Part shown: positions 906 to 25,775 of the stretch, piece by piece
How positions within the stretch are numbered: the first letter of the stretch is position 1
Layout: every line of letters starts with the position of its first letter
DNA from: Astropecten irregularis
Taxonomy: Eukaryota; Echinodermata; Asteroidea; Paxillosida; Astropectinidae
Reading direction: 5' to 3'
DNA: 64,000 nt
Assembly: GCA_963971285.1 (NCBI GenBank)
Contig: OZ020246.1
Span: 9,717,217 to 9,781,216 of the forward strand
Position numbers and translations under genes: made by a program
Notes under the pieces: generated by a model
The model's database searches: none
What the model saw: only the letters and a program-made list of their open reading frames with translations
Told to the model about the DNA's origin: nothing

Positions 906-1146
906 GACGAGCGAGCCGATGCAGACCCAGACGTCCCCGGCCCCTACGGAGGGCAGCGACGAGTCACCGGTTGTTCGAACCCATCACACCCGGCAAAGGC
1001 TTCGTCCCTGGTTGGAGGGCCTGGTCAACGACGGGACGGTCAAGGGCCTGGAGTGGATCGACAAGGAGAAGAAACTCTTCAAGATTCCCTGGAAGCATGC
1101 TGGAAAGCAAGACTACAACCAGGAAGAAGACTCCAAGATATTCAAG
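906..1146 (+). CDS. IRF: IRF gene 1, exon with start codon and first half of DNA-binding domain
   Basis: A pyrimidine-rich tract ending TTTCCCAG precedes the exon; ATG at 919; donor AAG|GTATAC at 1147. It encodes residues 1-76, phase 0 at the end. After an acidic/Ser-rich lead come RLRPWLEGLVNDG, GLEWID, FKIPWKHAGKQDY and SKIFK, which are the first three DBD tryptophans and the IPWKHA signature of the IRF fold. Confidence 0.95.
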
Positions 1147-4100
1147 GTATACACAGTTTGCTTACCTTAGTAAAAAAAAAAAAGCATGGAAAACTTTGGA
1201 GAACCGATCTAATAGTCAACAGCGCACGCGCAAAAGAACGCGCGCATGCTCATAATTGCGTGCGCGTGCGCTGTTAACTTGAAGACCGGTTCTCAAAAGT
1301 CTCCCATTGCTGTCTAGCTAACTCTGTTCTTATAACTATAGCATTTGAGAAAGACTAAGTCTGTGAAAAGAATTCCAGCTGAAAAGTCAGCCCCTCCTAT
1401 AACTCTGAGCATTTTGTGTCTGTTCTGTCAGTGTCCCCGTTGCACTCAAGATGTTCACTCTAGTTCTTTGTCTTGTAGAACTGTCCCCGTTGAATGTTCC
1501 CTTGATCTGATGACATGTTAAGTTCACGATAAATGCCAATTTCTGTCCTCATCTCCACAGGGCACCTTCTTCTTATTTTATCCATTCGTCCAATAGATGC
1601 AATTTGCATCCTTTTAAAAGGATATCAAAATCAAAATTGTGAATTTCTATCAATTTGCAATAAATTGAATCGTTCACGTTGGTATACATTTTTGGGACCA
1701 TGCGTTTTTTTCCCCAAATTTTCTTATCTCCGAAAACAAGTAGAGAACCAAAATAAAGCAGCGATGTCTTTTCTTGAGTGTTCATAAGTGACGAAGAAAC
1801 AATTCCCAGATTGTCTTTTACAACAATTGTGTATCTTCTTCCTACCCCGACAATTATAGCTGTGGTCCCTGAACACTGGCAAGTACAAGCCGGGGATCCA
1901 CGTGCCTGAGCCGGCGGTGTGGAAAACCCGTCTCCGCACGGCGCTCAACAAACTCCCGGACATTGATGAAGTTCACGAGAAGACCCAACTAGACATCCCT
2001 GAGCCTTACAGGGTCTATCGATTCCTGCCCAAGAAACGTGAGTATACAATATTAGATGTAGAATCATTGACCAGGGGGCAATTTCATAGAGCTGCTTAGC
2101 ACAAAAAAATTGCTTAGCACAAAAATAGTTTGCCCAATGAAACAAACCACCATTGAAAAAAATGCTTAGCACAAAAATAGCTTTCCCAATAAAACAAACC
2201 ACCATTGAAAATTCCATTTGGATTCATGGCCAGCGAACGACAGCCAAAGAACAATTGCAAGTGATACAGAACACACGGACATTTGGTTGTTAATCCTGTT
2301 TTTACTAGAGGCAGAAACGTCATGCTTAGCGAATTTTTGTGCTAAGCAGCTCTATGAAATTGGTCCCAGTGGGCCAGAGTTTGATCTGTTATTGCAATTT
2401 AAAATGTATATCTCGTGTTTGGATGAAGGGAGTGAAATAGTGTAGTTATGCAATTCAATATGCTGTTTTCAGCATCTCTGTTATGAAAATTTCGGTGTGA
2501 TTAATTATTATACTGCATGGATTTGAACGTCTATATTATGAGAAAGATTTGAGGCTTTGCATGGTGACAATGTGGATCGGGTTGCGGAAACACCATGTAA
2601 GAATCGTTCGTACTTTCGCACTTCTATATCGTTCGCACTTCTCGCAATTAAGGTCCCAACGTTTCGACTAGTCTGCTCTAGTCCTCATCACGTCTATATG
2701 GTCACAAACATGAAACAAAATCACAATTTGTCATACAGCATTTTTACAAAATGGGGTCGATCGTTAAACCCGTCCGGACTGTTTAGATAATGTGTCATGA
2801 ATTGAGCAAAAACAAGAACAGTTTGATATCAAATATTGCTGGCTATTTTGGGGTCAGTGCGCTGATTCAGTTGTTTTGAACAAAACCAGACTGATTTTTA
2901 TTGATGAGAACTCGGTCAGAAAAACCAATAACAAGCAAAATAGTCACAATTCAGACCAATTTTTGTCTGGACGGAGTTTTTTTTTTCTGGAGGGGGTGGT
3001 CTGGTCAGATCCCACTGGCAGAATTACAGACAAGACGCAGGGGGTTCCCCTCCCCGTGTGGGAAAGCCAGTGTGTATACCCTCCACTGCACCCCGTACCA
3101 GTCGCGTGTTTACGCTACCAGACTTGTATAAACCACAAGTACCCTGACGTCAGTAGTGTGTGCGCCCCCTGCTGACGGGCCTCTGACGTCACAAACTCAG
3201 CCTAGTGATTCATTCTTAAGTTCTTCCAGTATGTCTTCTCTGAAAACCACAATTTCTGAGTGATGTGTGAAATTCTTATATGATAGGTATAGCTCCAACC
3301 TCCCTCCCCTTACACCCCTTTGAGTCGATTATTCCTGTCATGGACAATTTAACCGCATGGAGTTCCGAACTCATGAAGCCGAAATTGTAGACGTCTACAA
3401 TGTGGGGCTATTATAGTCTGTGGCTATATGGACGAACCAACGGACTGGCATGTGGGTGTTAGCCCCCTGCGAACCCTGTCACAAATAATCCCGTTTGTTC
3501 CTTCTGATCTCCGAGCAGAAATTTCCCTTCCTGCAACTCGTTTCTCGAAAGCACAACAGTGTCAAGTCAAGCGAAAACAAACCCATACGCACGGCTCATT
3601 ATGGTCACTGAGAACACATTGTAACACGAAAGATAGTGCTAGGCCTATATCAATTCCATTTAGTTTTTTTTATAAAGATGAATAGATTTTATTAAGTAAA
3701 AGGGTATTGTTAGAAAAATATGTGAAAACAAACCCATACGCACGGCTCATTGTGGTCACTGAGAACAACGGTTTAAATGCTATATCAATCCCATTATAGT
3801 TTTTTTTATGAAGATTAATAGAAATTATTGAGTAAAAAGGCATTGTTCGAAAAAAATCATCCTTTTTGCCTGCAGTCCAGCTGCTTACCTCCAAGTTGCC
3901 TGTAAAATTGTGTCGTCCGATAAGTCATTTATATACATGAGCACTATCCCACAAAGGAATGTCGATTCCGTCCACAGTATGGAAGGAAACGAACCTCAAA
4001 TTTCACAAACTTTCCCTCCAAATTGCAAACTTCAAAATGTGTATAAAATGAAATAGTCTTTGCTTTGATAGTTGGCCTATAATGCTTCTAATGTGTAGTG

Positions 4101-7100
4101 CTGGTCCGTGCATTACACCAAACGGGTTCTACATTTTAAACAATGGGAGACTTTGGAGAACCGGTCTTGAGTCAACAGCGCACGCGCAAACCATGCTTGC
4201 GCAATTGTGAGCATGCGCGTGTTGTTGTGCGCGTGCGTGCGCTTGCGCTGTTGACTTTAGACCGGTTCTCTAAAGTCTCCCATTGCCTTGTGTCGAGATG
4301 GCATAGAGATGGATTGTATAGGGCTTCATAATTGCAGTGAGTTTAGAGGTTGAATTATTCCTAATCATTTTCTTTCTTTGTGGTTTTCGTTTGGTTGGTG
4401 CACACAGCGTCCAAGAGCCCATCGGGACACCGTATCCCCAGCAGCCCAACCTATGGATCAGCAGACCACAGGGTAAGACACGAGCACAAGACTAGCAAGG
4501 AACAACCTATACGATCTTCAAATAATATATCATGGTTAAAACCATGCATTCATTCACGAATATACACTCATGTTCAGAGTACAACATAGAAAATCCATTA
4601 TCAAAATTAATGTGAATCCATAAATTTCTTCAAAGTGACACTTAAAGGTAGTATCATACTTTGGTAAGAAAGCAAAACTGAAATGTTCACAGATTTACGT
4701 ATAACTTACACGGTATGAAGATGGTGATGGTAGAAACATACCGTTAGTTTTTCCGCCTGAAATGGTGTATTTATCCAGAAATTTGTGAAAATACGACCGA
4801 AAATATGTTTAATCTTTTAAAAGATCAAAAATAAAAGAGAAAAGACTTAAGAAATACTGTGGCCGTTTTTCGCTGTTTTCTCAAAAAGTGGGCACCGTAT
4901 GGGACTGCAGTGTTCACAGATGACTGTTACTGTATCTTTCTTGATATTTTTGACCATGAATCTGTATGTCTTTGACAAAAACCAAATAATGATATAACCT
5001 TTAACGATCAATGAAAATGGAAAGTTGGTCAGTCTTTATAATGCGGTGTCAACATGTGGAACATCTTTATTTATTGCAATTTATATGTCAATGCATTGTT
5101 TCGACTTCAGTGGCGTAAGAAGGTCTAGCTACCGCCTCTTCTCTGCCATGTGGTGCATTGGCATCTAGTTATTCTTTGCTGTTTCTCAATGTGATGCTTT
5201 CTCGTTTGCAGACTGTACAGTCAATGACTGGTTATGCAGCGCCCTATAACCCATACATGGTGGACCAGCGCACGCCCTACTACAGCCAGTACCAGTCTAT
5301 GGGTAAGTCCAACACCCTTCTTTCACGTCCGCATTAACTCTTTCACGTCCGCATTAACTTAGCGGTTACTGCACTGAAACAAACATGACACTCAAAACAC
5401 TCGAAGTATGGAATTAGGTTTAAGTTTAAGCATGCACTGGAAATTTGCAACCTCGACCTTTCTTTTGTTTACAAACACTGACATGCTGGTTGGCAATACT
5501 TGGTATGGGCAGCCAAAATGTTGCAAATCATTTCATCTTCTTGACAGACGTTGTGACCAAATTCAGCTAAATTTTGTACAAACTTTCCATAGCATACAAA
5601 ATACATACCATCATTGCTTGTGTTGTTTCCATTACATTCAGCAATATCTTTCAATGTTTATGAAACGTTGTGTACAAAATTGTGGTTATTACTTGTATGC
5701 CTGGCTTTGATGGCTCGCCATAGTTTCCGCCATGTTGATTAGCAAAAACTTGGTCTGTGACGTTGCCGGCAAAAGAAAGGTCTATAAGGCTTAATGTAAT
5801 TAATGGCAGATTTTAATGTTTTTTCGTGTGACAACTGGCCAAAAAAGCAGAATTGTAACAGCTCTCAGTTCGTGTATTAATACCATAATTGCTTAAATAA
5901 CTTAACTGGCACTTCCTCTTTTGATACACCAGTCTAATTTCACATAAACTTCAGAATGTTGACAACTTTTCTTCGTTGTTTTCCTTTCTTTTTATCATAG
6001 GCGGTTCAGACAGACAAAGTTTGGCTCAGTCAAGTTACCATCAGCAGACCAACGCTTGGTATAACGAAGCGGTAAGCTAGTCTCGTTTCGTGCCTCTAGT
6101 TTATTGACTTTAAATCCCATGCGCACTAAATTGAGGGGGTTTTCAACTTGTGTCCTGGAGGACACGTCTACACCTCGGCCAGTGATTATTGTTTTAATGG
6201 TCGTTTCCTTCAAAGCCGGGAGCTATACGAAAACTACTGGAGTAGAATACTTTCATTTATTACATCCTGAACAACTCCCTGCAGTTACCACTACATAATT
6301 GTTGTACTCCAATATTATTATTAATCTATTGACTACAAGTTGGTGCAATTCAAATTGAGAAAGGAAATCCTTGGGGAAAACCAACTGTGACTTATTTTGA
6401 TGTAAATAAAATGGCGCGTGGGGGAAGTGTGGTACTTTCGTCATTGTATGTTGTCCTTTATAAAACAAAAACTTGTAAAAAAAAAAACCTGCAAATTGTC
6501 CTGCGGCTCTGGAATTCAAGTCGTGCTCACTATTGCTTTTGGTGAGAATTGTACATGGAATGTTTTAGTGTGCATGATTTCATGGCTTCTGACTGTCAAA
6601 CGAACAAAGATAATTGACTATTGGGGTCACCACCAACTGGATGGCTCAGTTGGTAGAGCGCCTGTACGGGTATTCTGGAGGTCGCCGGTTCGAATCCCAC
6701 TTCAGTCAATTTTTCTTTGTTCACTTTTCAACAAGGAGAGATTGATGTTTTCAAGTGGAATTTTGTGTTATTTTATTCTTTCTAGACTCGAACGACTAGC
6801 GTGGATCCAAGCTATGGCTACGCAGGTTACAACTGTAAGTAGTTTGATGTTTTTACTCAGATTTGAACTTTTGCATGGTTGATACATTGTTGCATGTTTT
6901 AAAGCAATTAAAAGGTTTTTCCTTGTTTTATTTATATTTTGTGCCAACTTGCCGAATTTATCAAAACAAAGAAGTTGTAGGTGGTGTCATAATTATTTTG
7001 GAATAAAATAAAATGATTGCGATTTTTGTTGTGCGCAGGTTACAATACAAGCAGCAGCACTGCAACGGATCTTGACATCATCAGTGACGTCATCACGGAA

Positions 7101-10100
7101 GATATAGGCGGTAACCATGGTCACCACCCTTCCAGCCACGCCCACTACCCCCAGAGCGGCGGTCACGTGTACGAGCAGGAGGGCGCCCTTCCCATGGAGC
7201 ACGGAAGGCTGTCCAAACTCGAAAACAGTGTTAATGGTGAGAGCCAAAATATTATACTTTAATTCTGTTTAAGTATTCATGTCCTAACTGGGACACCTTA
7301 ATGAATATTAAAGGTCATAGGTCACGCCATAGCGGCCACTCTTTCAGTCAGTACATCCAACAGAACATCGTTTGCGAGTCCATATGCATTTACACGTGCA
7401 TTGAGTAGAATATTATAAAAAATGTTGCAAAATTATTGTTTCTTTGTTTGGTAGATTTTGGAACGAAATTCAGCTTCGCAACTGTACAAAAATACACTCA
7501 TCATTCTTTGCTTCATTCCAATACTGTCTTTGGACGTTTACAAAACATTATGTACGCATAATTTTCGATTATCTGTTTTTGCCTTGCATTAAACGGCTCC
7601 CCATAGTCTCTGCCGTCATCTTGTTGGGCAAAAACTCCCAATTAAGTCACGGGGTTCTTGGCCAATGTCAGTTATCAAATCTCGTTAGGTTCATCTGGTT
7701 TGTTCTGTGTTTGTCTGATTCTAAGATGTCAGGCATTGTTTTGAGAATCTTGAGATTATGGGAAAATAAGTGTTGTGTTTCTCGTGAGGCAGTGTTCATT
7801 GCAAAATTACTACATTACCAGTGGAATTCTGCAGGTCCATATTTAAGTCTGATGCCTAAGGTATCAGTCATATATCTAACTTGGTGAAATACTGACTAGG
7901 CTTACTATTATAACTGTCCCGTGATCTGTGTTGTATATGGATATTTTTTGCCATGCCCACGTGCCTGATACTCTGTTGTATTTATAGTTTCTGACCTTCC
8001 TCTGTGTGTAGCCAGGCTATTGCGGAGTCCTCAACTTGTTACTTCCTTCCCATCCCCTCTAAATAGTGACAGACGCTCTGGCCAATAATAACGATCCCCG
8101 ACACGTCAACTACCACGACCTGGTACCCATGACGACCGTGACGTCATCGGGCTACACCACCTGCGCCGTCACCACCATCAGCAAGCCCCCGGCGAACCCG
8201 CCGCCCAGCTACGAGAGCAGCCTGGCCGCCGACTCCCACCCTTACACCAGCACATGCGCCGTCACCATGGCCACCGCGTCGGCTGCCATGGATACCAGCG
8301 AGTCGGTCGCCATGGACACCACCAGCGTGTCCAATCACCACCTCCAACAGCAGCAGCAGCAGCAACATGAATATTCATCTAATCCCAGGCGCATGCGTTC
8401 ATGTTCGGACCCGGCCTTACCAGCTGGTGAGTTTTTGAACCTTATACCTTACCTTCTTTTTTTTATTCTCCTCTCCACACAGTGCGTGATGACGATATTC
8501 CTATCGAAATTCAATTTATTCTGTCCACAACTCGTGACCGCAGAGAGCTCTATTTATACTCGGCTTGATCTCCGCTGCGGACCAGGAATCTTTTTATACT
8601 CGCCTGAGATAAGCACACGGGCGCAATATGGATTTCACCCTGTGCTTTTTTATACCCCATCAACTGCAGAAAAAAGAAAGAAAGTGCATTACCTTAGATC
8701 TGCATTTTGAAGCAGCTATAGGAAGGAATACCGTCACCAAGACCACGTTTACGTATAGGATGACAATAAATAACACCAGATGATCCCTCCGAAGCTTATA
8801 CCTCGCCAAGTCCAAGGCTCCCCCTTCCAAGTTAATTTGTTTCTCAAACTTTGCAAGCGGGGCAGAAGAGAAGACAAGAGAAGAAAGAGAGAGAGAAGAG
8901 AAAAAAAATCAGGGTATTTTATCGGTTTTGACCCGATAGCCCACGGGCTAAAATTAGCCCGTGTGGGAGCTAAATTTGCCGGTAAGTGTGGAAAGGTCCT
9001 GGCCCACCTGCACTGTGACATTAGACTGTACGCTAACGGAACGGCTCTGACATGTTTGAAATCTCGCGCAGTATATTAAAAAAAAAAAGACAGCCCATTT
9101 GGAAAAAAGACTTGTACACAGGCATCGGGAAACAATTAAGGTGGGGGAACGCCTTCGGTAAACTCGCACGCAAATTCTACCTTGCAAGTATTAATACGGA
9201 CTACCTGCATTCGCAGAATGCACGAGAATGATATTTTGCTGTGGCCCACAGATTGCACCTTTGCCTATAGTTGATATGTATTAATATCATTGGAAGTGGT
9301 ACACAGCGGCATTGAAGCAGCCGTTTCCCGGGCTGTAGTAATCAAAGTAATTGGCCATTTCCCACGTGAGTATGGACTCCAACTCGGAGCAGGTGTCCCA
9401 GGATTTTTTCCATCCCAGCACCAAACTCCCTCCAAAATGTCTCAAGATTGAACGGGTCGGAGTCACTTCTTTACTCGTGTTTCTCGAGCCTGGGTTCAGA
9501 AAATTGATCATTCATCATTGTCACTTGTGTTAAATGCAGCACGGACGCACCTTTTGAACAATCTCTGCTAGTGGCCGAAATCTTGCAACGGTGTGCTATA
9601 AAGAAACAGTTTAACGCAGGCTGGAGCCTTCACCAGAGCTCTATCCGTGTAGCACCAAAGGTCACTCTAGGTTGTTTGCGCGGCACGTGACTCTTCGTAT
9701 GCGCCTAGATTTTTTTTTTTGGCTCAATTTTTCACCTCACTATCGAACGTGTTTGATATTTAATCTCATTGATCGTCGAAAAGAAAGAAGTATGAACGAA
9801 ATAGTTGCACATTGCGAGGTACGTGCCGAGCAAACGGCTACCGTGTTGACCGACTTTCTTGCCCCGCAGCGAGCTCTTGTACGCGGCATGTAACAAACTG
9901 TGAGCATGAGTAGGCTTTATTTTTACCCGTATCACACACTTACCCAATTAATCGTGACATTTTGTGCGCTTTGAAACCAGTGCAATTTCTCAAACGAAAT
10001 CTTACCGGGGGTCGATTTCACCAAACTCATCGTAGTTTACTATCAATTGTAGGACTTAATGCATTGCAGTTCTACGTATGGATACGATGGATTATCCTTT

Positions 10101-11814
10101 GTAACTCGAGTTACGATCGATCGTATAGGGCTTCGTGAAATCGACCCCGGGACCCAATGATAAGCGTAGTTTAGTCAATTCGAAGAATTGCGACACTCTC
10201 CATAGAGCAATCAACATTGCGTCTGTAATAAGTATGGCTATCTCTTTGAGCGTAGTTAGAATCCTGACTTCGGCTGGTATAAGAGTCTGATGATAACAAG
10301 GAAATTGTCGACGTTTCGGACTGGGGTATCTGACAATCCCAAGAGGTCTCTTTAACCTTTCGCCATTTATCATCTTTATTTATCATCTTAAAATTTATGT
10401 TCTGGAATGTTTGTTGTTTCTTTTCTCCAGAGCATGTGACGTCAATCCAGATTTTCTACCGATCTACGGATGCCGGGTACCGGTGCGTGGACAATCCCAA
10501 CGGCTGCGTGTTGTACTTCAACCAGCCTTGGGACGAAGGGATGCAGCGGGGCATGGAGGCTATTAACCTGCCCGACATCGGTGCTGTCCCGGCCCATCCG
10601 GATATGACCGAGAGCCAAATGAAACTGACCGCCGAGGTGCTCAAGTGTTTTGAGAAAGGGTAAGTCGATCAGGCAGGGATATTGGTGTTTCGTGTGGTAT
10701 TTATAATTCGATAGCTTTTTTAGAAAGGATTGAGACTGATATAAAGGTCACATACTCTTCAATCTGGACAAATTTGTTTGAATCCTGTTTGAATTTAATC
10801 TATATCCCTATGAAGGTTTCATCTTAAGTCGTGCAGTTGTAAAAATCTTGCAGATTTTTGTCACAATTTCTCCGTATGCTTGAAAACATAGGGCCTACAT
10901 GCATCTGCATCACAATAATTTTCTTTTGCTAATTACCAGACCCATAGGTGCCGTTTCATATTTCATTGGTAGCCTGGGGTGCGTTCCGCTTGCGCGAACA
11001 TACGCGAACATGTTTGCGCCGTTTGCGTTACGCTTGGATTTTGTAGTGGAACGCACACGCAACAAACCACGAACATGTATTGCGAACTGCGTCCATCTTT
11101 CATTCGATGTAGTTAGCCAAATTCAGCAAACACCTCCTCTACACCGTTAGCTTTGTTAGGCGAACGTTGTGTGCGTGTTGTGTTGTGTGTTCCGGTTTGA
11201 AAACGGTGGCGCACATTGTGCGCCGTGCGCGTAGTTAGCTGGAGTGGAACGCACCCCTGGTGCATTCTGAAGTCATGTGATTCCACGTGATTCTCACGTG
11301 AATATGACGTCTCTGATTGTGTATTATTTTTGTTGCCACCAATTTCCTCTTCTGCAGGATGAGCATCGAGTGTCGCCATGGGAACATCTACGTCACGCGT
11401 CGCTGCCGTGCGGTGGTGTTTTGGTGCGCCCCCAACGCCAACGAGAAGCCAACCAAGCTGGAAAGGGACGTGGAGGTCAAGGTGTTTGACCTGGTCCAGT
11501 TCCACGACCAGCTTCGTCGCTACTACCTGGGCGAGGATGCGCCCCCTATTCTCCCCGAGATCTACTTCACCGTGGCGCAGAAATGGAGCTCGCAGGACAT
11601 GCCCCTCCACGCCTGCCTCATATCCATCGTGGTCACGCCGTTGAGGGCGTCCGAGGAGCTCCGCACCATCAACCCAGAGGTGCATTCCCTGCCTCACAGC
11701 AACTACAGCGGTATGCTGCAGATATCGGGGCCGGTACCAGACTGTTCATCTCCCATTGGCAGTAGCTCGCTCAGCGACTTATCCCAGTGTTGTCGCATGA
11801 GTGCCATGGTGTGA
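919..11814 (+). CDS. IRF: Full-length interferon regulatory factor (IRF family), 10 coding exons, 641 aa
   Basis: Sequence-specific transcription factor of the IRF family, expected to act in the nucleus on GAAA-repeat (ISRE/IRF-E) sites after activation in the cytoplasm. Coding exons: 919-1146, 1860-2037, 4408-4472, 5212-5302, 6001-6071, 6786-6834, 7039-7236, 8067-8426, 10431-10659, 11358-11814; all joins keep frame and have GT-AG borders. Domains: DNA-binding domain about residues 25-135 with the five family tryptophans; Tyr-rich linker about 158-232; Ser/Thr/Pro linker to 413 with PPSY (339-342) and a short poly-Gln; IAD (SMAD MH2-like fold) about 414-600; LQIS at 610-613. The start is the first ATG after the acceptor at 905. 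A 5' UTR exon must lie upstream. The IAD plus C-terminal LQIS points to the IRF3/5/4/8/6 side rather than IRF1/2, but orthology is not assigned. Confidence 0.93.
1183..1310. mobile_element. GCGC-rich foldback MITE, copy 1
   Basis: Ends are inverted copies of a GGAGAACCGGTCT-like sequence, with an alternating GCGCACGCGC core between two GTCAACAGCGC arms. Lies in an intron of IRF gene 1. Same family as 4141-4285 and 20315-20462. Confidence 0.8.
1860..2037 (+). CDS. IRF: IRF gene 1, second half of DNA-binding domain
   Basis: The acceptor ends AATTATAG and the donor is AAAC|GTGAGT. It encodes residues 77-135 (LWSLNTGKYKPG, VWKTRLRTALNKLPDIDEV, then YRVYRFLPKK). TWKTRxRxALNK-type residues form the recognition helix that reads GAAA. 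This exon completes the five-tryptophan set and ends in phase 1. Confidence 0.95.
2071..2372. mobile_element. Foldback element with AATTTCATAGAGC ends
   Basis: Inverted termini AATTTCATAGAGCTGCTTAG and its complement, about 300 bp apart. Inside the left half a ~48-bp segment with GCTTAGCACAAAAATAG is tandemly duplicated. Intronic in IRF gene 1. Confidence 0.75.
4141..4285. mobile_element. GCGC-rich foldback MITE, copy 2
   Basis: Terminal inverted repeats CAATGGGAGACTTTGG / AAGTCTCCCATTG and inner AACCGGTCT / AGACCGGTT; CG/GC alternating centre. In an intron of IRF gene 1. Confidence 0.85.
4408..4472 (+). CDS. IRF: IRF gene 1, short linker exon
   Basis: 65-nt exon between acceptor CACACAG and donor AGG|GTAAGA; residues 136-157, Ser/Pro rich (SKSPSGHRIPSSPTYGS). 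Frame is retained on both sides. No domain recognised. Confidence 0.8.
4642..5004 (+). mobile_element. TTAA-flanked MITE (family T), copy 1
   Basis: Bounded by TTAA on both sides with inverted ends AGGTAGTATCATACTTTGG / AAATAATGATATAACCT; about 360 bp with no ORF. The TTAA target and short inverted ends suggest a piggyBac-type non-autonomous element. Other copies: 12215-12418, 43804-44138, 45564-45898, 46929-47264, 48555-48925, 57394-57698. Confidence 0.8.
5212..5302 (+). CDS. IRF: IRF gene 1, Tyr-rich linker exon
   Basis: 91-nt exon, acceptor CGTTTGCAG, donor ATGG|GTAAGT. It encodes residues 158-187 with many tyrosines (GYAAPYNPYM, TPYYSQYQ). Part of the prion-like low-complexity segment that continues through the next exons. 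Confidence 0.85.
6001..6071 (+). CDS. IRF: IRF gene 1, Gln/Ser/Tyr linker exon
   Basis: 71-nt exon, acceptor TTATCATAG, donor GCG|GTAAGC, phase 1 in and 0 out. It encodes residues 188-211 (SSYHQQTNAWYNEA). Low complexity, no known domain. Confidence 0.85.
6570..6735 (+). repeat. tRNA-derived SINE-like repeat, copy 1
   Basis: A-box-like TGGCTCAGTTGGTAGAGCG and B-box GGTTCGAATCCC in tRNA spacing, flanked by inverted AACAAAGATAATTGAC / GTCAATTTTTCTTTGTT. The T-stem and anticodon stem do not pair well, so this is a tRNA-derived repeat, not a functional tRNA. In an intron of IRF gene 1. Confidence 0.75.
6786..6834 (+). CDS. IRF: IRF gene 1, 49-nt Tyr-rich micro-exon
   Basis: 49-nt exon, acceptor TTCTTTCTAG, donor AACT|GTAAGT. 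It encodes residues 212-227 including SYGYAGYN, which resembles the [G/S]Y repeats of FET-type prion-like domains. Confidence 0.82.
7039..7236 (+). CDS. IRF: IRF gene 1, His/Ser/Gly linker exon
   Basis: 198-nt exon, acceptor TGTGCGCAG, donor AATG|GTGAGA, phase 1 to 1 (skippable without frameshift). Residues 228-293; starts Tyr/Ser-rich, then acidic (DLDIISDVITEDIG), then a His/Gly segment and a charged helix-like end (HGRLSKLENSV). Confidence 0.87.
8067..8426 (+). CDS. IRF: IRF gene 1, Ser/Thr/Pro linker exon with PPxY, poly-Gln and RSxSxP
   Basis: 360-nt exon, acceptor CTCTAAATAG, donor GCTG|GTGAGT, phase 1 to 1. Residues 294-413. Visible motifs: PPPSY at 338-342 (WW-domain ligand class), a six-Gln run, and RRMRSCSDP near residues 400-407, matching the mode-1 14-3-3 pattern RSxSxP. 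GC-rich compared with its introns. Confidence 0.9.
10006..10152. mobile_element. GGTCGATTTCAC foldback MITE, copy 1
   Basis: About 147 bp, ends GGGGGTCGATTTCACC / GTGAAATCGACCCC, no ORF. In the last large linker intron of IRF gene 1. Related copies at 20056-20214 and 17068-17224. Confidence 0.82.
10431..10659 (+). CDS. IRF: IRF gene 1, first IAD exon
   Basis: 229-nt exon, acceptor CTTTTCTCCAG, donor AAAGG|GTAAGT. Residues 414-489. It begins HVTSIQIFYRSTDAGY and has NPNGCVLYF, the start of the IRF-association domain (IRF-3/MH2-like). Same length and phase as the paralogous exon at 23304. Confidence 0.93.
10974..11260. mobile_element. GGGGTGCGTTCC foldback element
   Basis: Ends CTGGGGTGCGTTCCGC / GTGGAACGCACCCCTGG, centre rich in GTTTGCG/CGCGAAC. 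Lies in the IAD intron of IRF gene 1, about 100 bp from the next exon. Confidence 0.8.
11358..11814 (+). CDS. IRF: IRF gene 1, second IAD exon and C-terminal tail
   Basis: Acceptor CCTCTTCTGCAG; stop TGA ends at 11814. Residues 490-641. Family landmarks: YVTRRCRAVVFW, KLERDVEVKVFDLVQFH, PEIYFTVAQKWS, LISIVVTPLRASEE. The tail carries MLQISGP (610-615), then Ser/Cys-rich residues; LQIS matches the phospho-acceptor context known from vertebrate IRF5 (LQISNP) and IRF3 (LHISNS). Confidence 0.94.
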
Positions 11815-18313: not shown

Positions 18314-18512
18314 TGTGGAATTGACGTGGGCGGAGTCCTTGAGAGTACGCTGCATCAATCAGAAGAAAGTTGGAAGGAAGGGGGAGGACAGCTTAGCCAC
18401 ACCCTGACACTGACACCAACCATCCCAGTGTTCCATCAAGAAAAACATGGACGGGTTTCAACCTGGCCAACAAGATTGCTTGGCGGACGCCTTACTGTTT
18501 GGTAACTCACAG
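18314..18512 (+). CDS. IRF-like gene 2, exon with start codon
   Basis: Acceptor CTCCACACAG, donor TCACAG|GTGAAT. In-frame stop TGA at 18405, then ATG at 18447; coding part is residues 1-22 (MDGFQPGQQDCLADALLFGN), phase 0 at the end. The first 133 nt are 5' UTR. Confidence 0.75.
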
Positions 18513-21500
18513 GTGAATTCATTTTGCACATTTTTTTGTAAAATAATATCTGATGTTTTCCAAGTATCAAATGGAGTAAGCAGCACAGGCTGCAAGGTTT
18601 TTTAAAACAAGAATTTCTGAGAAGAGTGGCACAACGTCCAATTTCAATAAACATCTTTGTGAAACAAACCGCATTTGTGGCACTGTGCATTGGTACTGTG
18701 CCTGTACTCGACGAGGACTCGGATCTTGGTACTCGTACTCGGCCCTGTACTCGACCTTGAATGTACTCGGACCCGGCCCAGAACTCAGACCTTGAAGTAC
18801 TCGGAGTACTTTGTACTCGGACTCGAGGACTTGACTCCAACACTGGCAGTAATACCTATTTATAACCATCATTAACTAAAGGAAGCAGCATGACCAGTAG
18901 TGCACTATATCTTTTACAATTTGCTTCAGCAGCCGTCGGAACATCCATGGCAAGGAGGACCTCAGCAGCAGTTACTGTTACAGCAGCAGTTACTGTTGCA
19001 GCAGCAGTTGTTGCAGCAGCAGCAGGACCTGCAGACAGCAGCTTACCCTGTCAAGCAGCTGGTTCAACCTCAGACTGACCCGCAACAACCTAGTCACCAG
19101 GAAGTGCAACATCCTCCTACCTATCTCCCTGCAACCTCTGAGGAGCCGCAATTAGAACAAGGTATAATTACTATACTATTAATGAACAACAAGTCTGGGC
19201 ACTCAATGTGGAGCCAATATTAGTGCTGGGTTGGTTTGCATAATTAATCAGGACATCTGCACACATGTGATAGACGCTCACTCGCTTTAATTTACAGCGA
19301 GTGCGTCTATCACATAGACTAGCTAGCATCATTCCTGCACACAGAACCAAATCAAGGCTTTCTCAGACTCCGATGTTAAGTAATTCTTTTCCTTGGTTCT
19401 CGACTGAGTGACTGAGTTTTCAGTGATTCAATATGAGAAGCCATGGGTTTGAGTAAAGAAATAAAAGTGTGAAAGATTCCTCCTTTTTTCCTCTTTCAGT
19501 TCTGGATCAGAATCAACTCCTGAGAATGACTGATGCTGAGTTTGAACAGATTGTGATGGGCCTATTTCCTGGGACGACTGGAGGTACATATGCTTGTTTA
19601 TTTAAGTCAGTGATCTGGGAAGGCTCAAACTTGTCCGTAGATCACATTTTCATTTACAGATGGCACATGTCTGGTTGCCAGCATTTAGACGTCCTGGCAA
19701 ATTTGAATCTTATTATGGGGATAGCGCATGCACCAAGGGGACTGATCAACTACAATCAGCATTATCTTCTTTGGTCATATTAGAGATGTGAGATGAGCTG
19801 TGCTTTTGAAAAAGGAGAATACTGGTAAAAATTGGCAAAAAGCATCTTGGACTCCTATGCATAGAAGCTACATTTCATTTGACAATAGAACATCATTATC
19901 AGCAGTGTAACATTTCTTCCTCACAGTCTAGCTAATTTGAACCGGGCTGGGCCACAATAACAAAGACCGCATCACATTTCACCTAAAATCTTTTTCAGTC
20001 AGTTTCCCCTGTGGTCATTTGACGACAATCTTTTTCCGTTTGCTTCATTCTCAGTCCTGGGGTCAATTTCACCAAACTCATCGTAACTTACTATCATTCG
20101 TAGGAGGACTTAGGATGCATCGGCAGGATTTGCAGCACTACACAGGATACGATGGGTTATCCTTTGTAACTCGCGTTATGATTGATCGTAGGGCTTTGTG
20201 AAATCGACCCCTGGGTTGGCATCAGGCTTTGTTAGCAATTTTTGTTTTTGACTCTGCTGTTATTGCCACTGCATCTGCTCATCTGTTGGGTCTTGTAGGT
20301 TTCTTATTCCTCATTGAATGGGAAACTTTGGAGAATCTGTCTTCAAGTCAACAGCGAACGCGCACGCACAACAGCACATGCGCAAAACAAAGCGCGCATG
20401 CTCACAATTGCGTGCACGTGCGCTGTTGACTTGAAGACCGATTCTCCAATGTCTCCCATTGGCTGACATTGTGTGTCCTCTACCCAGTCACGCCATTGTT
20501 CATCTGGTTACCACCTCCCCATGCTGTTATTTCTTTGCCAGCCAGCCTTGCCATGCTCCATCAGTCAAACAGTGCCACCCAGAGTAATTATAAAACTAAA
20601 AATGCTCAAAATTCTTTCTTTGTTGCAGCAGGAAATCCTGTCCAGCAACCAGCTGAAGCACCTGTTACAATGGCAATGCCTGTCCAGGCCAGTCATCAGG
20701 CTCCAACCCCAAATGGACCCAGTCTTTTGACTCAGTCTAGTACCCCAGCTCACGTGGCTCAGCTTAACCCCCGATTTGATGTGTACCAGCTCAATCCCCA
20801 TACCCCACGGGCTCAGCCTAGCACCCAGGCTCACGTGGCTCCATTTACCCCCCAACATAATGGGAATCAGCTCAACCCCCTTACCCCAGGGGCTCAGCCT
20901 AGCACTCCAGCTCACGTAGCTCCGTTTACCACCCAACATAATGGGAACCAGCTCAACCCCCGTACCTCAGGGGCTCAGCCTAGCACCCCAGCTCACGTAG
21001 CTCCATTTACCACCCAACGTAATGGGAACCAGCTCAACTCCCGTACCCCAGGGGCTCAGCCTAGCACCCCAGCTCACGTAGCTCCATTTACCACCCAACG
21101 TAATGGGAACCAGCTCAACTCCCGTACCCCAGGGGCTCAGCCTAGCACCCCAGCTCACGTGGCTCCATTTACCCCCCAACATAATGGGAATCAGCTCAAC
21201 CCCCTTACCCCAGGGGCTCAGCCTAGCACCCCAGCTCACGTGGCTCCATTTACCCCCCAACATAATGGGAATCAGCTCAACCCCCTTACCCCAGGGGCTC
21301 AGCCTAGCACCCCAGCTCACGTAGCTCCGTTTACCACCCAACATAATGGGAACCAGCTCAACCCCCGTACCTCAGGGGCTCAGCCTAGCACCCCAGCTCA
21401 CGTAGCTCCATTTACCACCCAACGTAATGGGAACCAGCTCAACTCCCGTACCCCAGGGGCTCAGCCTAGCACCCCAGCTCACGTGGCTCCATTTACCACC

Positions 21501-24500
21501 AAACATAATGGGAACCAGCTCAACCCCCTTACCCCAGGGGCTCAGCCTAGCACCCCAGCTCACGTAGCTCCTTTTACCACCCAACATAATGGGAACCAGC
21601 TCAACTCCCGTACCCCAGGGGCTCAGCCTAGCACCCCAGCTCACGTGGCTCCATTTACCAACCAACATAATGGGAACCAGCTCAACCCCCTTACCCCAGG
21701 GGCTCAGCCTAGCACCCCAGCTCACGTGGCTCCGTTTACCACCCAACATAATGGGAACCAGCTCAACCCCCGTACCCCAGGAGCTCAGTCTAGCACCCCA
21801 GCTCACGTGGCTCCACATACCCCCAAACATAATGGGAACCAGCTCAACCCCCGTACCCTAGGGGCTCAGTCTAGTACCCCGGACCATGTGGCTCCACATA
21901 CCCCCAAACATAATGGGAACCAGCTCAACCCCCGTACCCTACAGGCTCAGTCTAGCACCCCAGCTCATGTAGCTCCGTTTACCCCCCAACATAATGGGAA
22001 CCAGCTCAACCCAGGGGCTCAGCCTAGCACCCCAGCTCACGTGGCTCCACATACCCCCAAACATAATGAGAACCAGCTCAACCCCTGTACCACAGGGGCT
22101 CAGTCTAGCACCCCTGAGCATGTGGCTCAACCTGACCAGCCAGTTTCCTCTGCTCCGAGGAGGCGTAAAGAAGTCTCCAAAGAGCGGCCATCTCCTACAG
22201 CCAGAAATGCCTGCAGGACCAATCAGGATGGCAGTGCCACTGCCGTTGCCGAGAATCAACAAAGCCGCACTTCCACCAAGAAGAGACCTCGAGTGAAGAC
22301 TACTAAAGCCAAAGCCCAAGCCAAAGCCAAATCAGGAGAGCCCGCATCACTGGATTCCATTGAGTCCAAGAGACCGAAGACATCTACCCCTCCCTCGGAA
22401 ATGCCAGATGGTAAATGCATCCAATCTTTCCACTGCATCAGTATCACTTCAATTGTCACCCACACATATACTCTGGGACTTAGCAATAGATAGCCTTTTA
22501 TTTGTTCATCACTTTCACTGATTAGAGAATGTTGCCTATATAACATGCTGCAGATGTTGCCAATGGCTTGTGGGTCCAGTGCCACATGTACCCATCTCTT
22601 CCCCCACATGTACCCATCTCTTCCTCCACATATACCCACTTCTTCCTCCACTGCTCCACATGTACCCATCTCTTCCTCCACATGTATCTATCTCTTCAAC
22701 CACATGTACCCACTTTTTCCTCCACGCGTAACCATCTCTTCCTCCACATGTACCCACTTCTTCCTCCACATGTACCCACTTCTTCCTCCACATTTACCTA
22801 TCTCTTCCATCACATGTACCCACTTCTTCTTCCACATGTACCCATCTCTTCCTCCACATGTACCCACTTCTTCCTCCACATGTACCCATCTCATCCTCCA
22901 CATGTACCCATCTCATCCTCCACATGTACCCACTTCTTCCTCCACATGCACCCATCTCTTTCTCCACATGTACCCACTTCATCCTCCACATGTACCCACT
23001 TCTTCCTCCACATGTACCCATCTCATCCTCCACATGTACCAACTTCTTCCTCCACAGTTACCCACTTCATCCTCCACATGTACCCATCTCATCCTCCACA
23101 TGTACCCACTTCTTCCTCCACATGTACCCACTTCATCCTCCACATGTACCCACTTCTTCCTCAACATGTACCATCTCATCCTCCACATGTACCAATTTCT
23201 TCCTCCACATGTACCAACTTCTTCCTCCACAGTTACCCATATCGTCACCCACATGTACCCATCTCATGACCCAAATATAGGCTGTTTCTTCTTCCGTTCA
23301 CAGCGAAGGTACTGAACTTGCGATTCTTCTACCAGAATCACATGGTCTTGGGTCCCGATAGCATAACCAATTCTAACGGGTGCCTGGTCTACCACAAGAA
23401 GCCCTGCCAGTTCCAGGAGCCAGGATTGGATTGTGCCAACAAAGAGTTTCCAGTACTCGACACACAACAGACACAGATGACCGACAAACAACAAGTTGCC
23501 ACCAGAAAGTTGTTGGAGGCACTGGCTAAAGGGTAAGATTCTATGTGCTGGCAAGGCCTCATCATCAGATTTATTGAAAATTTGCTATTAAACCAAGTTA
23601 CCAAAACCAAAATGGAAAAATTGTTATCTCTAAGGATGAAAATTTCCGATTTGTATATTAAACGAGGCCGTGATTTATTTTTAAGAGCCACCGTAAGCAT
23701 TATTTCTGGAAGCACATTCTTTGTTTGGGTGTTGGGAAGTTGTCTTTGTTGAATAAATCAGTGTTAGTTACACATCAAATACAATGAAAGCATTTGCTGT
23801 GCTGAGGGGCCGTCCATAAACTACGTACGTACGCATGAAATGCCGACTTTTTTTACCCCCCCTCCCCCTCTGTACGCAAGGCGTACGCAGTGGTCCCAAC
23901 CCCCACTCCCCCCCTGTATGCATACGCATTTCACATAAGGTTTTTCACTTCTCGTGGTACCTTGCTTTAGCATCATAAATATGTCACAATAATCCGGGCC
24001 GGTACCGTTATTGGGACGTCACTTTCAAATTTTGAAATGAATGAAGTGTAACAGGTTTTTATACATTTACAGATGTATTTTACTATTTTGTTATCATATT
24101 GAATAAGAAAAAAAGGAAAAAACAAATAAATCCTGGTGCTTTTTCTCGTTTGTTTCCCTCTCTTTTCACACGAAATGATTATGCAAATTTTTTGTTTGCG
24201 TACGGTACGCATTGGCCTGAACCCCGGCCCCCTCCCCCCCTGTACGCATGGCGTACGCATCGGTAACAACCCCCCCTCCCCCCCTCTGTGCGTACGTACT
24301 TTATGGACGGCCCCTGACCAAAATTATGCAGTGTTTAGTGTTAGAGCTCGGTGCAATGATCAGTGGAGCTATATGATCATAGGTGCTAAGCTACGCTGTA
24401 ATAGTATATGCTGCTCGATGCAGTATGATCTAAGGCGCTAGACTTAGCTGTGTTATATGGTGAGCTGTATGATCTATAAGGAGCTAGGGTAAGTCATATG

Positions 24501-25212
24501 ATGAACCCATGCCTCTGCATATACCACACAAGACGAGCTGTTTAGCACACACTACCACAGCCTCCACAGTGGAATTAGATCATTATTACCACGCATTACC
24601 ACACAAACCACACTGTGGTGTATTGTGGTTTTCAGAACCATGTGTGGTAAACTGTGGTATGCAAGTGCAGGTGGGTTAGGGTTAATAAATAAGCGAGGCA
24701 GACATCACAATTTTAGGCTGAGGCTGCGAGAAGCTCCTTGGTATTAAAATTAAAATAAATCTTCTGATTTTTGTTTCAGGATTCACATATCTATGGACGA
24801 GTCTGGCAACATCTACGCCAGGCGTTTCTGTAAGGCCAAAGTGTTCTGTTATGCCTCTGAGCCTGTGGCAAATGAGGAGACTCGGTTGGTAAAGCATGCT
24901 GGGCAGAAAGAGTATTATGTCCACAAGCTGGTGCAGCAGAGGATTACGAAGATCTTCGACCAGGATCAATTTAAATTGCGCCTTCTTCAAGCACTGCAAA
25001 CTGGTAACTTCCCCCGGGCACCTGAGCTGGTCTTCACCTTTGCTCAGGAGTGGATGCCGAAGTTCCCCATCTCCAACTGCCTGGTCTACATGATTCTGCA
25101 TCCAGAGCGTGCCAGGTGTCAGCAGAAGGTCATGAGCAAGACCAAAGATGCGTCCCTGGACCCCGATGACATCGGGCTGTCTTTCTCCTTGACCTCCCTC
25201 AGCTTAAATTAA
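18447..25212 (+). CDS. IRF-association-domain protein lacking an IRF DNA-binding domain, 6 coding exons, 941 aa
   Basis: Coding exons 18447-18512, 18930-19161, 19500-19583, 20629-22410, 23304-23532, 24780-25212; all joins are in frame with GT-AG borders. Layout: short N-terminus, Gln-rich segment (23-99), short helical-looking segment (100-127), about seventeen 27-residue Thr/Pro/Asn repeats (164 to about 628), basic segment with KKRPRVK (NLS-like), then an IAD (722 to about 915). The start is the ATG at 18447 (A at -3, G at +4), preceded in frame by TGA at 18405, so no DBD is encoded upstream on this transcript. The last two exons share intron position and phase with IRF gene 1, indicating tandem duplication. 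Likely role (inference): dimerisation partner, decoy or coregulator of the neighbouring IRF. Alternatives are an unseen alternative 5' exon or a decaying paralogue; the clean frame argues against decay. Confidence 0.85.
18930..19161 (+). CDS. IRF-like gene 2, Gln-rich exon
   Basis: Acceptor TTTGCTTCAG, donor CAAG|GTATAA. Residues 23-99, dominated by QQQLLLQQQ-type runs, then PVKQLVQPQ and a Pro/Glu end. Typical of activator or assembly segments. The other open frame here (Ala/Val-rich) is a shadow of the CAG repeats. Confidence 0.82.
19265..19315. repeat. 20-bp stem hairpin in gene 2 intron
   Basis: ATGTGATAGACGC..CACTCGCT pairs with AGCGAGTGCGTCTATCACAT with a 2-nt bulge and 9-nt loop; sits in the 338-nt intron between exons ending 19161 and starting 19500. 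Confidence 0.6.
19500..19583 (+). CDS. IRF-like gene 2, 28-codon exon
   Basis: 84-nt exon, acceptor CCTCTTTCAG, donor GGAG|GTACAT, phase 1 to 1. Residues 100-127; encodes DQNQLLRMTDAEFEQIVMGL then FPGTTG. Looks like a short amphipathic helix; no family recognised. Confidence 0.78.
20056..20214. mobile_element. GGTCGATTTCAC foldback MITE, copy 2
   Basis: Ends CTGGGGTCAATTTCACC / GTGAAATCGACCCCTGG; the inner GGATACGATGG and TTATCCTTTGTAACTCG match the copy at 10006. Confidence 0.82.
20315..20462. mobile_element. GCGC-rich foldback MITE, copy 3
   Basis: Same ends and core as the copies at 1183 and 4141; sits in an intron of IRF-like gene 2. Confidence 0.85.
20629..22410 (+). CDS. IRF-like gene 2, giant repeat exon and basic segment
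   Basis: 1782-nt exon (594 codons), acceptor TTTGTTGCAG, donor GATG|GTAAAT, phase 1 to 1. Residues 128-721. From 20736 it holds a coding minisatellite; after about 22130 the protein turns basic (RRRKEVSKERP, KKRPRVKTTKAKAQAKAK, SKRPKTS), consistent with nuclear localisation. The minus strand is also open through the repeats as a by-product of the 81-bp period. Confidence 0.87.
20736..22130 (+). repeat. Coding minisatellite, 81-bp (27-residue) unit, about 17 copies
   Basis: Unit contains PSTPAHVAPFTTQ, HNGNQLNP and a TPGAQ linker. Copies are nearly identical, with position-specific swaps (QHN/QRN/KHN, NPLTP/NSRTP/NPRTS); adjacent copies 4-5 and 6-7 repeat the same variants, indicating recent unequal exchange. 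One copy near 22012 is shortened. The period is a multiple of three, so copy-number change keeps frame. Confidence 0.95.
22573..23270 (+). repeat. Intronic minisatellite (CCACATGTACCCA..TTCCT units)
   Basis: About 700 bp of units near 21-22 bp (CCACATGTACCCACTTCTTCCT with ATCTC variants) filling the intron between the coding-repeat exon and the IAD exon of gene 2. Open in several frames on both strands only because of the repeat; no splice support as coding. Confidence 0.9.
23304..23532 (+). CDS. IRF-like gene 2, first IAD exon
   Basis: 229 nt, acceptor TTCCGTTCACAG, donor AAAGG|GTAAGA. Residues 722-797 (KVLNLRFFYQNHMVLGP, NSNGCLVYH, VATRKLLEALAKG). Aligns with gene 1 residues 414-489. Confidence 0.92.
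23805..24316. mobile_element. Long foldback element with GGGGCCGTCCATAAA ends
   Basis: Ends AGGGGCCGTCCATAAA / TTTATGGACGGCCCCT, followed inward by CGTACGTACG and poly-C/T tracts. No ORF. In the IAD intron of gene 2, the intron that in gene 1 also hosts a foldback element. Confidence 0.85.
24780..25212 (+). CDS. IRF-like gene 2, second IAD exon and C-terminus
   Basis: Acceptor TTTTTGTTTCAG, stop TAA at 25210-25212. Residues 798-941. IAD landmarks: IYARRFCKAKVFCYAS, KIFDQDQFKLRLL, PELVFTFAQEW, CLVYMILHPERA. The tail is acidic then Ser/Leu-rich (IGLSFSLTSLSLN) and has no LxIS motif, unlike gene 1. Confidence 0.93.
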
Positions 25213-25775
25213 GCCTATTCTCCTCAGTTTGCCCACCCACTCTGGGCGGCTTTGATTTGTTTCAGATGGCCAAATGTATTTGGTTGCTATCAGTGTTGTA
25301 TCTGAGTCCACAACCTCCAAGGCAGAGGCCGAGACCGAGTCATGGGTCTCCGAGGCCAAGGCCAAGGCCGAGTCATGGGTCTCCGAGGCAGAGGCCGAGG
25401 CCAAGTTTCTCACAAGCAGCCGAGGCCAAGGCCGAGTCTGAGTCATGGGTGTCCGAGGCCGAGGCCATGGCCGAGTCACACATGAGCATATCATTTCACT
25501 CCGCGAGAGACTGTTTGCTAGTCTAGATGCGGTACCCGAACTCCCCAATGCGGTTTAAAACCACACTAGCACAGGGCACCATGCTCTAGCTCAATTCATT
25601 AAATTTGATGCATTACACGCTATACAATAATGTCGGCGTGTATGTGAGCGCTATTTGCATGTTATTTTTAACTTTCTTTGTGTAAGTGTATTTAATGAAA
25701 AATTAAAAAAATTTCCCCCTAAAATGTTGGTAAACACGTTTCCGTTTTGAATAAATTTCCGGCCTCGGGCCGATG
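25213..25775 (+). other. Probable 3' UTR of IRF-like gene 2
   Basis: Contains a GAGGCC-rich simple repeat (about 25318-25475) and AATAAA at 25750-25755. The end is not resolved. Confidence 0.5.

Follow-up and report, generated by a model that had tools for sequence, protein, structure and literature searches.

An IRF-type gene with an IAD and no detected DNA-binding domain beside an IRF4-like gene in the starfish Astropecten irregularis

Gene structure at the locus

In the usual description, interferon regulatory factors (IRFs) work by means of a DNA-binding domain (DBD) and, in most members, an IRF association domain (IAD) as well. We analyzed a window of 64,000 nucleotides from Astropecten irregularis (C9:9717217-9781216, where C9 is contig OZ020246.1; the genome comprises 475.7 Mb in 168 contigs) that carries what is, to judge by its domains, a full IRF4-like gene (gene 1, 919 to 11814) and, starting 6.6 kb downstream on the same strand, a second gene (gene 2) that ends in an IAD and for which no exon encoding the canonical N-terminal five-tryptophan DBD (PF00605) was found. 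Positions given without a contig are those of the window.

Gene 2 could be assembled from six exons with GT-AG sites and compatible phases, which together give 2826 nt, or 941 residues plus the stop; the 941-residue frame proposed by an earlier reading made from the letters alone (the sequence-only reading) was thus rebuilt and is open throughout.

18447..18512, + strand: exon A, with the ATG, MDGFQPGQQDCLADALLFGNSQ; open frame, GT donor and upstream in-frame TGA
18930..19161, + strand: exon B, Gln-rich, starting in phase 0; placed by AG/GT sites and phase
19500..19583, + strand: exon C, short, VLDQNQLLRMTDAEFEQIVMGLFPGTTG; AG/GT sites, with three stops in each of the other + frames
20629..22410, + strand: exon D, with Pro/Thr/Ala/Gln/Asn-rich repeats and then a basic, nuclear localization signal (NLS)-like region; open frame
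23304..23532, + strand: exon E, IAD exon a, 229 nt; PF10401 at 22.1 bits alone, under the cut-off of 27
24780..25212, + strand: exon F, IAD exon b to the stop TAA; PF10401 at 31.1 bits and a vertebrate-IRF hidden Markov model (HMM) at 30.2 bits

The other two + frames contain 10 and 43 stops in exon D, 3 and 3 in exon E, and 7 and 5 in exon F. The 188-residue N-terminal piece of gene 2 has no Pfam match even at an E value of 1, the exon D frame has none at E 0.1, and none of ten other long frames in the window matches Pfam above the cut-off.

The ATG of gene 2 stands in the context AAAAACATGG, and the in-frame TGA noted by the sequence-only reading is present at 18405, 42 nt upstream of it. 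This stop is no proof of the 5' end, because an exon could start between the TGA and the ATG: two AG sites lie there (exon starts 18429 and 18441), and the frame stays open from either. Both have weaker pyrimidine tracts (0.56 for 18429, 0.69 for 18441) than the five accepted gene 2 acceptors (0.75-1.0).

The IAD and the search for a DNA-binding domain

The IAD of gene 2 occupies residues 722-941, at the C terminus of the product. As a joined domain it scores 64.4 bits (E 1.4e-17) against PF10401, whose cut-off is 27 bits, and 32.9 bits against MH2, and on these full-domain scores we rejected a Smad/MH2 gene; none of the 13 matches listed in a genome-wide search with PF03166 falls on C9. Its best chain in PDB is IRF5 (3dsh, E 3e-8), and Drosophila Expansion is matched at E 5e-6. 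The vertebrate-IRF HMM, made of IRF3, IRF4 and IRF5 chains only, was run on 7128 six-frame peptides with five shuffled sets as the control. Exon F reached 30.2 bits (E 1e-7 over the 7128 peptides), whereas the best matches in the shuffled sets were 5.3, 6.0, 7.5, 10.9 and 10.5 bits, so that the clear IAD claimed by the sequence-only reading is borne out. Exon E alone, at 10.7 bits (E 0.1), was not above the shuffled control; it scored 20.5 bits once gene 1 joined the HMM, and it fits the gene model in frame and phase.

The DBD was sought by HMM at maximum sensitivity in all six frames of the window, of the 10 kb upstream of it, and of 40 kb around each of two other IRF-type loci, gene 3 and a locus on contig C28, both described below. 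In these regions gene 1 and the C28 locus supplied the only DBD exons above the HMMER inclusion threshold, two each. Genome-wide, PF00605 found the same two loci, as did the gene 1 DBD used as a protein query, which gave one extra match at E 0.14 carrying four stops. A hidden divergent DBD between genes 1 and 2 was not found by the maximum-sensitivity scan or by either genome-wide search, in keeping with the earlier statement that no DBD exon separates the two genes, and the whole 941-residue product of gene 2 contains 2 Trp. The presence of an IAD-bearing frame without a detectable DBD exon is therefore confirmed at the level of sequence, and the case is strengthened by the finding of a second IAD gene in which no DBD was detected.

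Gene 1 is represented by four modelled exons:

919..1146, + strand: first coding exon, first half of the DBD; PF00605 at 61 bits, ATG at 919, phase-0 end
1860..2037, + strand: second half of the DBD (PF00605), ending in phase 1
10431..10659, + strand: IAD exon a, 229 nt; PF10401 at 24.3 bits alone, under the cut-off
11358..11814, + strand: IAD exon b to the stop; PF10401 at 61 bits

With its two DBD exons joined, gene 1 matches IRF4 chains at 4e-39; its IAD reaches 100.8 bits against PF10401 and 22.9 bits against MH2. Three IAD loci were found in the genome, whether searched with PF10401 or with gene 2 exon F: genes 1 and 2 and a gene 3 at C9:9345903-9349564, 0.39 Mb from gene 2. IAD exon a of gene 1 and that of gene 2 were not among the matches listed in the PF10401 genome search, which can thus overlook a weak exon standing alone. 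Gene 3 was modelled as four exons with a 393-residue frame, and its IAD scores 76.6 bits against PF10401 and 24.5 bits against MH2. Its 5' end is open, since the first modelled exon has an acceptor site 8 nt upstream of its ATG; the six-frame DBD HMM found no DBD within 26 kb upstream, and the layout of an IAD without a DBD is hence seen twice. The C28 locus has two DBD exons and no IAD match among those listed there, and is perhaps an IRF1/2-type gene.

The three IADs are 40.5% identical between genes 1 and 3 (205 columns), 31.8% between genes 2 and 3 (217 columns) and 30.9% between genes 1 and 2 (191 columns), and 38 alignment columns are invariant across all three. In each, one intron falls at the 5' border of the IAD, in phase 1, and another, in phase 2, splits the Gly codon that follows "AK/EK"; exon a measures 229 nt in genes 1 and 2 alike. 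The two intron positions and phases common to the three IADs argue for common descent, and the shared introns, together with linkage on the same chromosome and strand, likewise argue that gene 2 shares descent with a full IRF.

At a locus on contig C20, which we take to be SMAD1/5, the Gly codon corresponding to that of the IADs is interrupted by an intron too, in phase 1 instead of 2. The Gly-codon intron is consequently not strictly IRF-specific, and its use as an IRF-specific mark is weakened. We also set aside as evidence an N-terminal LxDAxLF pattern that occurs, in the six-frame set scanned, only at the N termini of genes 2 and 3: it was picked after it had been noticed, gave a blastp E value of 0.033 and was equalled in score by 15 of 100 shuffles (with the gene 3 N terminus truncated to 67 residues).

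The 16,335-bp mitochondrial contig translates sensibly with AAA read as Asn (FSTNHKDIG in COX1 under code 9); its large rRNA and two frames taken to be ND2 and ND1 lie on the other strand from COX1, features that together point to Asteroidea. Two observations elsewhere in the assembly also concern COX1. An apparent nuclear copy of part of the mitochondrial gene, with seven TGA codons, lies at C25:9951047-9952018; at C131:32162-33484 there is a COX1 without TGA codons that looks bacterial, so this contig may derive from a symbiont or from contamination.

Repeats, basic clusters and switch residues

The part of gene 2 that precedes the IAD is 29% Gln over residues 1-99 and rich in Pro, Thr, Ala, Gln and Asn over residues 128-640. 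The basic clusters RRRK, KKRPR and KRPK, which start at residues 638, 678 and 708, lie beside the IAD and are presumably NLSs. Tandem Repeats Finder (TRF) placed two minisatellites within the gene:

20731..22128, + strand: 81-bp coding minisatellite in exon D, 17.4 copies of a 27-residue unit
22582..23261, no strand assigned: 22/44-bp minisatellite, intronic, between exons D and E

It also reported a 33-bp array at 25315-25478, just past the gene 2 stop codon. Over 15 full-length units of the 81-bp repeat, pN/pS is 0.69 and the variable columns number 8, 9 and 9 by codon position; because of this ratio and the absence of codon-position bias, we rejected the repeat exon as proof of coding. The array is likely to be length-polymorphic.

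The pLxIS motif and the R211/R285 surface are not present in every IRF. In IRF3, a basic surface that includes R211 and R285 docks the phosphorylated pLxIS of adaptors, and R285 sits opposite the adaptor phosphoserine; with R211Q, promoter induction was lost for each of the three adaptors tested, and R285Q left little phosphorylation and dimerization (PMC7672473). We set the numbering by counting along the IRF3 chain from R211 in "YRGR" (a derived offset), R285 being the Arg of "AQRLG". In the alignment, the R285 equivalent is Arg in all three starfish genes, and the R211 equivalent is Arg in genes 1 and 3 and Gln in gene 2. The motif that follows the IAD reads LQIS in genes 1 and 3 and in IRF5, LHIS in IRF3 and LSFS in gene 2. 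The IRF3-type switch is thus incomplete in gene 2, where only the R285 equivalent of the tested features is kept. Since the R211-equivalent Arg and the Ile of LxIS are both replaced, binding by gene 2 is expected to be independent of an IRF3-type phospho-switch. Gene 3, which keeps both Arg equivalents and LQIS, looks switch-competent and may still be signal-driven.

Possible roles and relation to known systems

With moderate confidence, we read gene 2 as a DBD-less IRF paralogue whose product would be a nuclear co-regulator tethered through its IAD, perhaps to gene 1. The basic clusters beside the IAD would carry the protein into the nucleus, where the IAD would bind a partner, most likely the gene 1 product and otherwise the C28 IRF or an adaptor, in a manner expected to be uncoupled from the phospho-switch. 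The protein would touch DNA only via this partner, and its Q-rich and P/T/Q-rich parts could recruit or block co-activators. Such a co-regulator could activate or repress. The sequence-only reading suggested that gene 2 might serve its full IRF neighbour as a decoy, an adaptor or a scaffold, which is plausible.

A dominant-negative decoy, in which gene 2 would sequester the gene 1 IRF or an upstream adaptor and damp the response, overlaps with this interpretation and is possible but somewhat unlikely. No DBD was found for gene 2, and its IAD keeps the phospho-contact equivalent to R285, with a replacement at the R211 equivalent, whose mutation disabled IRF3 (PMC7672473); however, these facts suit a co-activator equally well, and the 720-residue, Q/P-rich, NLS-bearing N-terminal part would be unneeded for a simple decoy. 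We also considered read-through from gene 1 that uses the IAD exons of gene 2 as alternative 3' ends, the product being a second full IRF. The two genes are close and on the same strand, and DBD exon 2 of gene 1 ends in phase 1, the phase in which exons C, D and E of gene 2 start; joins from 2037 to these exons are open to the gene 2 stop, with 978, 950 and 356 codons, respectively, including the stop. The sequence-only reading had named a DBD joined in frame at 18930 or later as the arrangement that would overturn it: at 18930 itself (exon B) such a join reaches a stop before the IAD, and a join to exon F likewise stops without an in-frame IAD, whereas at C, D and E the frame is kept. Against such a hybrid, gene 2 has its own candidate ATG exon and a phase-0 exon B that the hybrid must skip, and the same layout recurs in gene 3, with no DBD in the 26 kb upstream; gene 3 cannot take the gene 1 DBD by read-through, because it is situated 0.37 Mb upstream of gene 1. 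We consider the hybrid unlikely.

That gene 2 is a decaying or unexpressed IAD duplicate seems very improbable. Minisatellites fill exon D and the intron after it, and protein constraint in the repeats is weak, but 2826 nt are open across six exons with clean splice sites while the other + frames of exons E and F are interrupted by the stops counted above, and 38 columns remain invariant with genes 1 and 3 despite pairwise identities of ~31-32%. It is also rather improbable that the product is an adaptor working in the cytoplasm and not in transcription, in the manner of Drosophila Expansion/Rebuf, proteins whose MH2-type domain has a role in chitin deposition at the apical membrane (PMC4388265, PMC9894549). 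Expansion, compared throughout as an 89-residue fragment only, does rank gene 2 first among 12 other fragments (gene 2, 32.5 bits; gene 3, 26.9; an MH2-type gene on contig C23, 22.1; SMAD4, 11.4; SMAD2/3, 7.0; gene 1, 6.8; IRF4, 6.2), and one loop is 36-38 residues long in genes 2 and 3 and Expansion, against 23-29 in gene 1 and three vertebrate IRFs and 30-31 in the Smads measured. Yet in Pfam the Expansion fragment scores higher as MH2 (48.9 bits) than as IRF-3 (25.0 bits), and with a Smad HMM (23.0 bits) than with an IRF HMM (20.6 bits), whereas genes 2 and 3 side with the IRFs on the full domain; the domain is C-terminal in gene 2 and N-terminal in Expansion (PMC4388265), and the NLS-like clusters speak against a cytoplasmic protein. 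By its N-terminal N-alpha-MH2 domain, then, the Expansion/Rebuf family differs from gene 2 both in domain position and in the order of the Pfam scores.

Several points weigh against a nuclear IAD-tethered co-regulator. To judge from the phases, the gene 1 DBD could join exon C, D or E in frame; exons A-C are modelled from splice sites and open frames alone, without homology; and the repeat exon is little constrained at the level of protein. The gene 2 IAD is the least IRF-like of the three by Pfam scores. Finally, the genome searches score best candidates only, and a very divergent or weak DBD or IAD could therefore be missed.

A broader proposal, which we regard as speculative and probably wrong, is that genes 2 and 3 represent an old DBD-less IAD lineage bridging the IRFs and the Expansion/Rebuf N-alpha-MH2 proteins. 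The structure of Expansion has been placed in the Smad/FHA superfamily alongside the IRF-3 domain, and Exp/Reb have been called protostome-specific (PMC4388265). A profile of the three starfish IADs reaches Expansion at 1e-12, compared with 2e-16 for IRF5, 2e-8 for IRF4 and 0.04 for SMAD4. Against a link between IRFs and Expansion, the Expansion fragment alone finds only itself and chance matches in PDB, with no IRF and no Smad; the gene 1 IAD and IRF5 as queries do not reach Expansion at E 10; and the vertebrate-IRF HMM gives Expansion 9.6 bits, under two Smads and the C23 gene. If the proposal were true, IAD-only regulators would be older than the protostome-deuterostome split, and the kin of Expansion would include IRF and not only Smad; the sequence relation in any case allows a test of whether IRF domains and Smad-like adaptor domains form a continuum.

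The C23 gene is of MH2 type and lies at C23:10137471-10138749 on the minus strand, with a separate exon resembling the MH2 C terminus. Among the fragments compared, its one fragment matches SMAD4 best (30.7 bits) and then Expansion (22.8 bits); the gene is possibly a deuterostome Expansion-like one, although that family has been described as confined to protostomes.

Type I interferons are regarded as an innovation of vertebrates, with no clear homologue identified in any invertebrate phylum (PMC10210618). A chromosome with one full IAD-bearing IRF and two IAD genes in which no DBD was detected would provide a natural test of what an IAD does in the absence of DNA binding, whether as decoy, co-activator or adaptor. 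No IAD-only IRF gene appeared among the top-ranked literature matches on IRFs, at most 20 of up to thousands per search, although unnamed database entries may exist, and the available portions of PMC11841930 and PMC10210618 make no mention of IAD-only IRFs.

Compared with known systems, gene 2 is like IRF4/IRF5-type IRFs (PF00605 plus PF10401) in its conserved IAD core and in the intron scheme of the adjacent IRF4-like gene, but differs in that no DBD was found, in its very long and repetitive N-terminal part, and in the replacement of the R211-equivalent Arg and the LxIS Ile. IRF1/2-type IRFs also have one of the two canonical domains, in mirror image, since they keep the DBD, as at C28; the available text of PMC3308963 describes IRF1-type members without an IAD and molluscan IRFs that all have a DBD, including the five mussel IRFs of that study. 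The vIRFs of Kaposi's sarcoma-associated herpesvirus (KSHV) are IRF derived, as gene 2 appears to be, and two of them repress interferon promoters by blocking contact between IRF3 and CBP/p300; however, they are predicted to keep both DBD and IAD folds (PMC11209080), whereas gene 2 is a host gene for which no DBD was found. Drosophila Expansion/Rebuf share with gene 2 an MH2/IAD-type domain without a DBD, but in those proteins the domain is N-terminal and the fragment scores higher as MH2.

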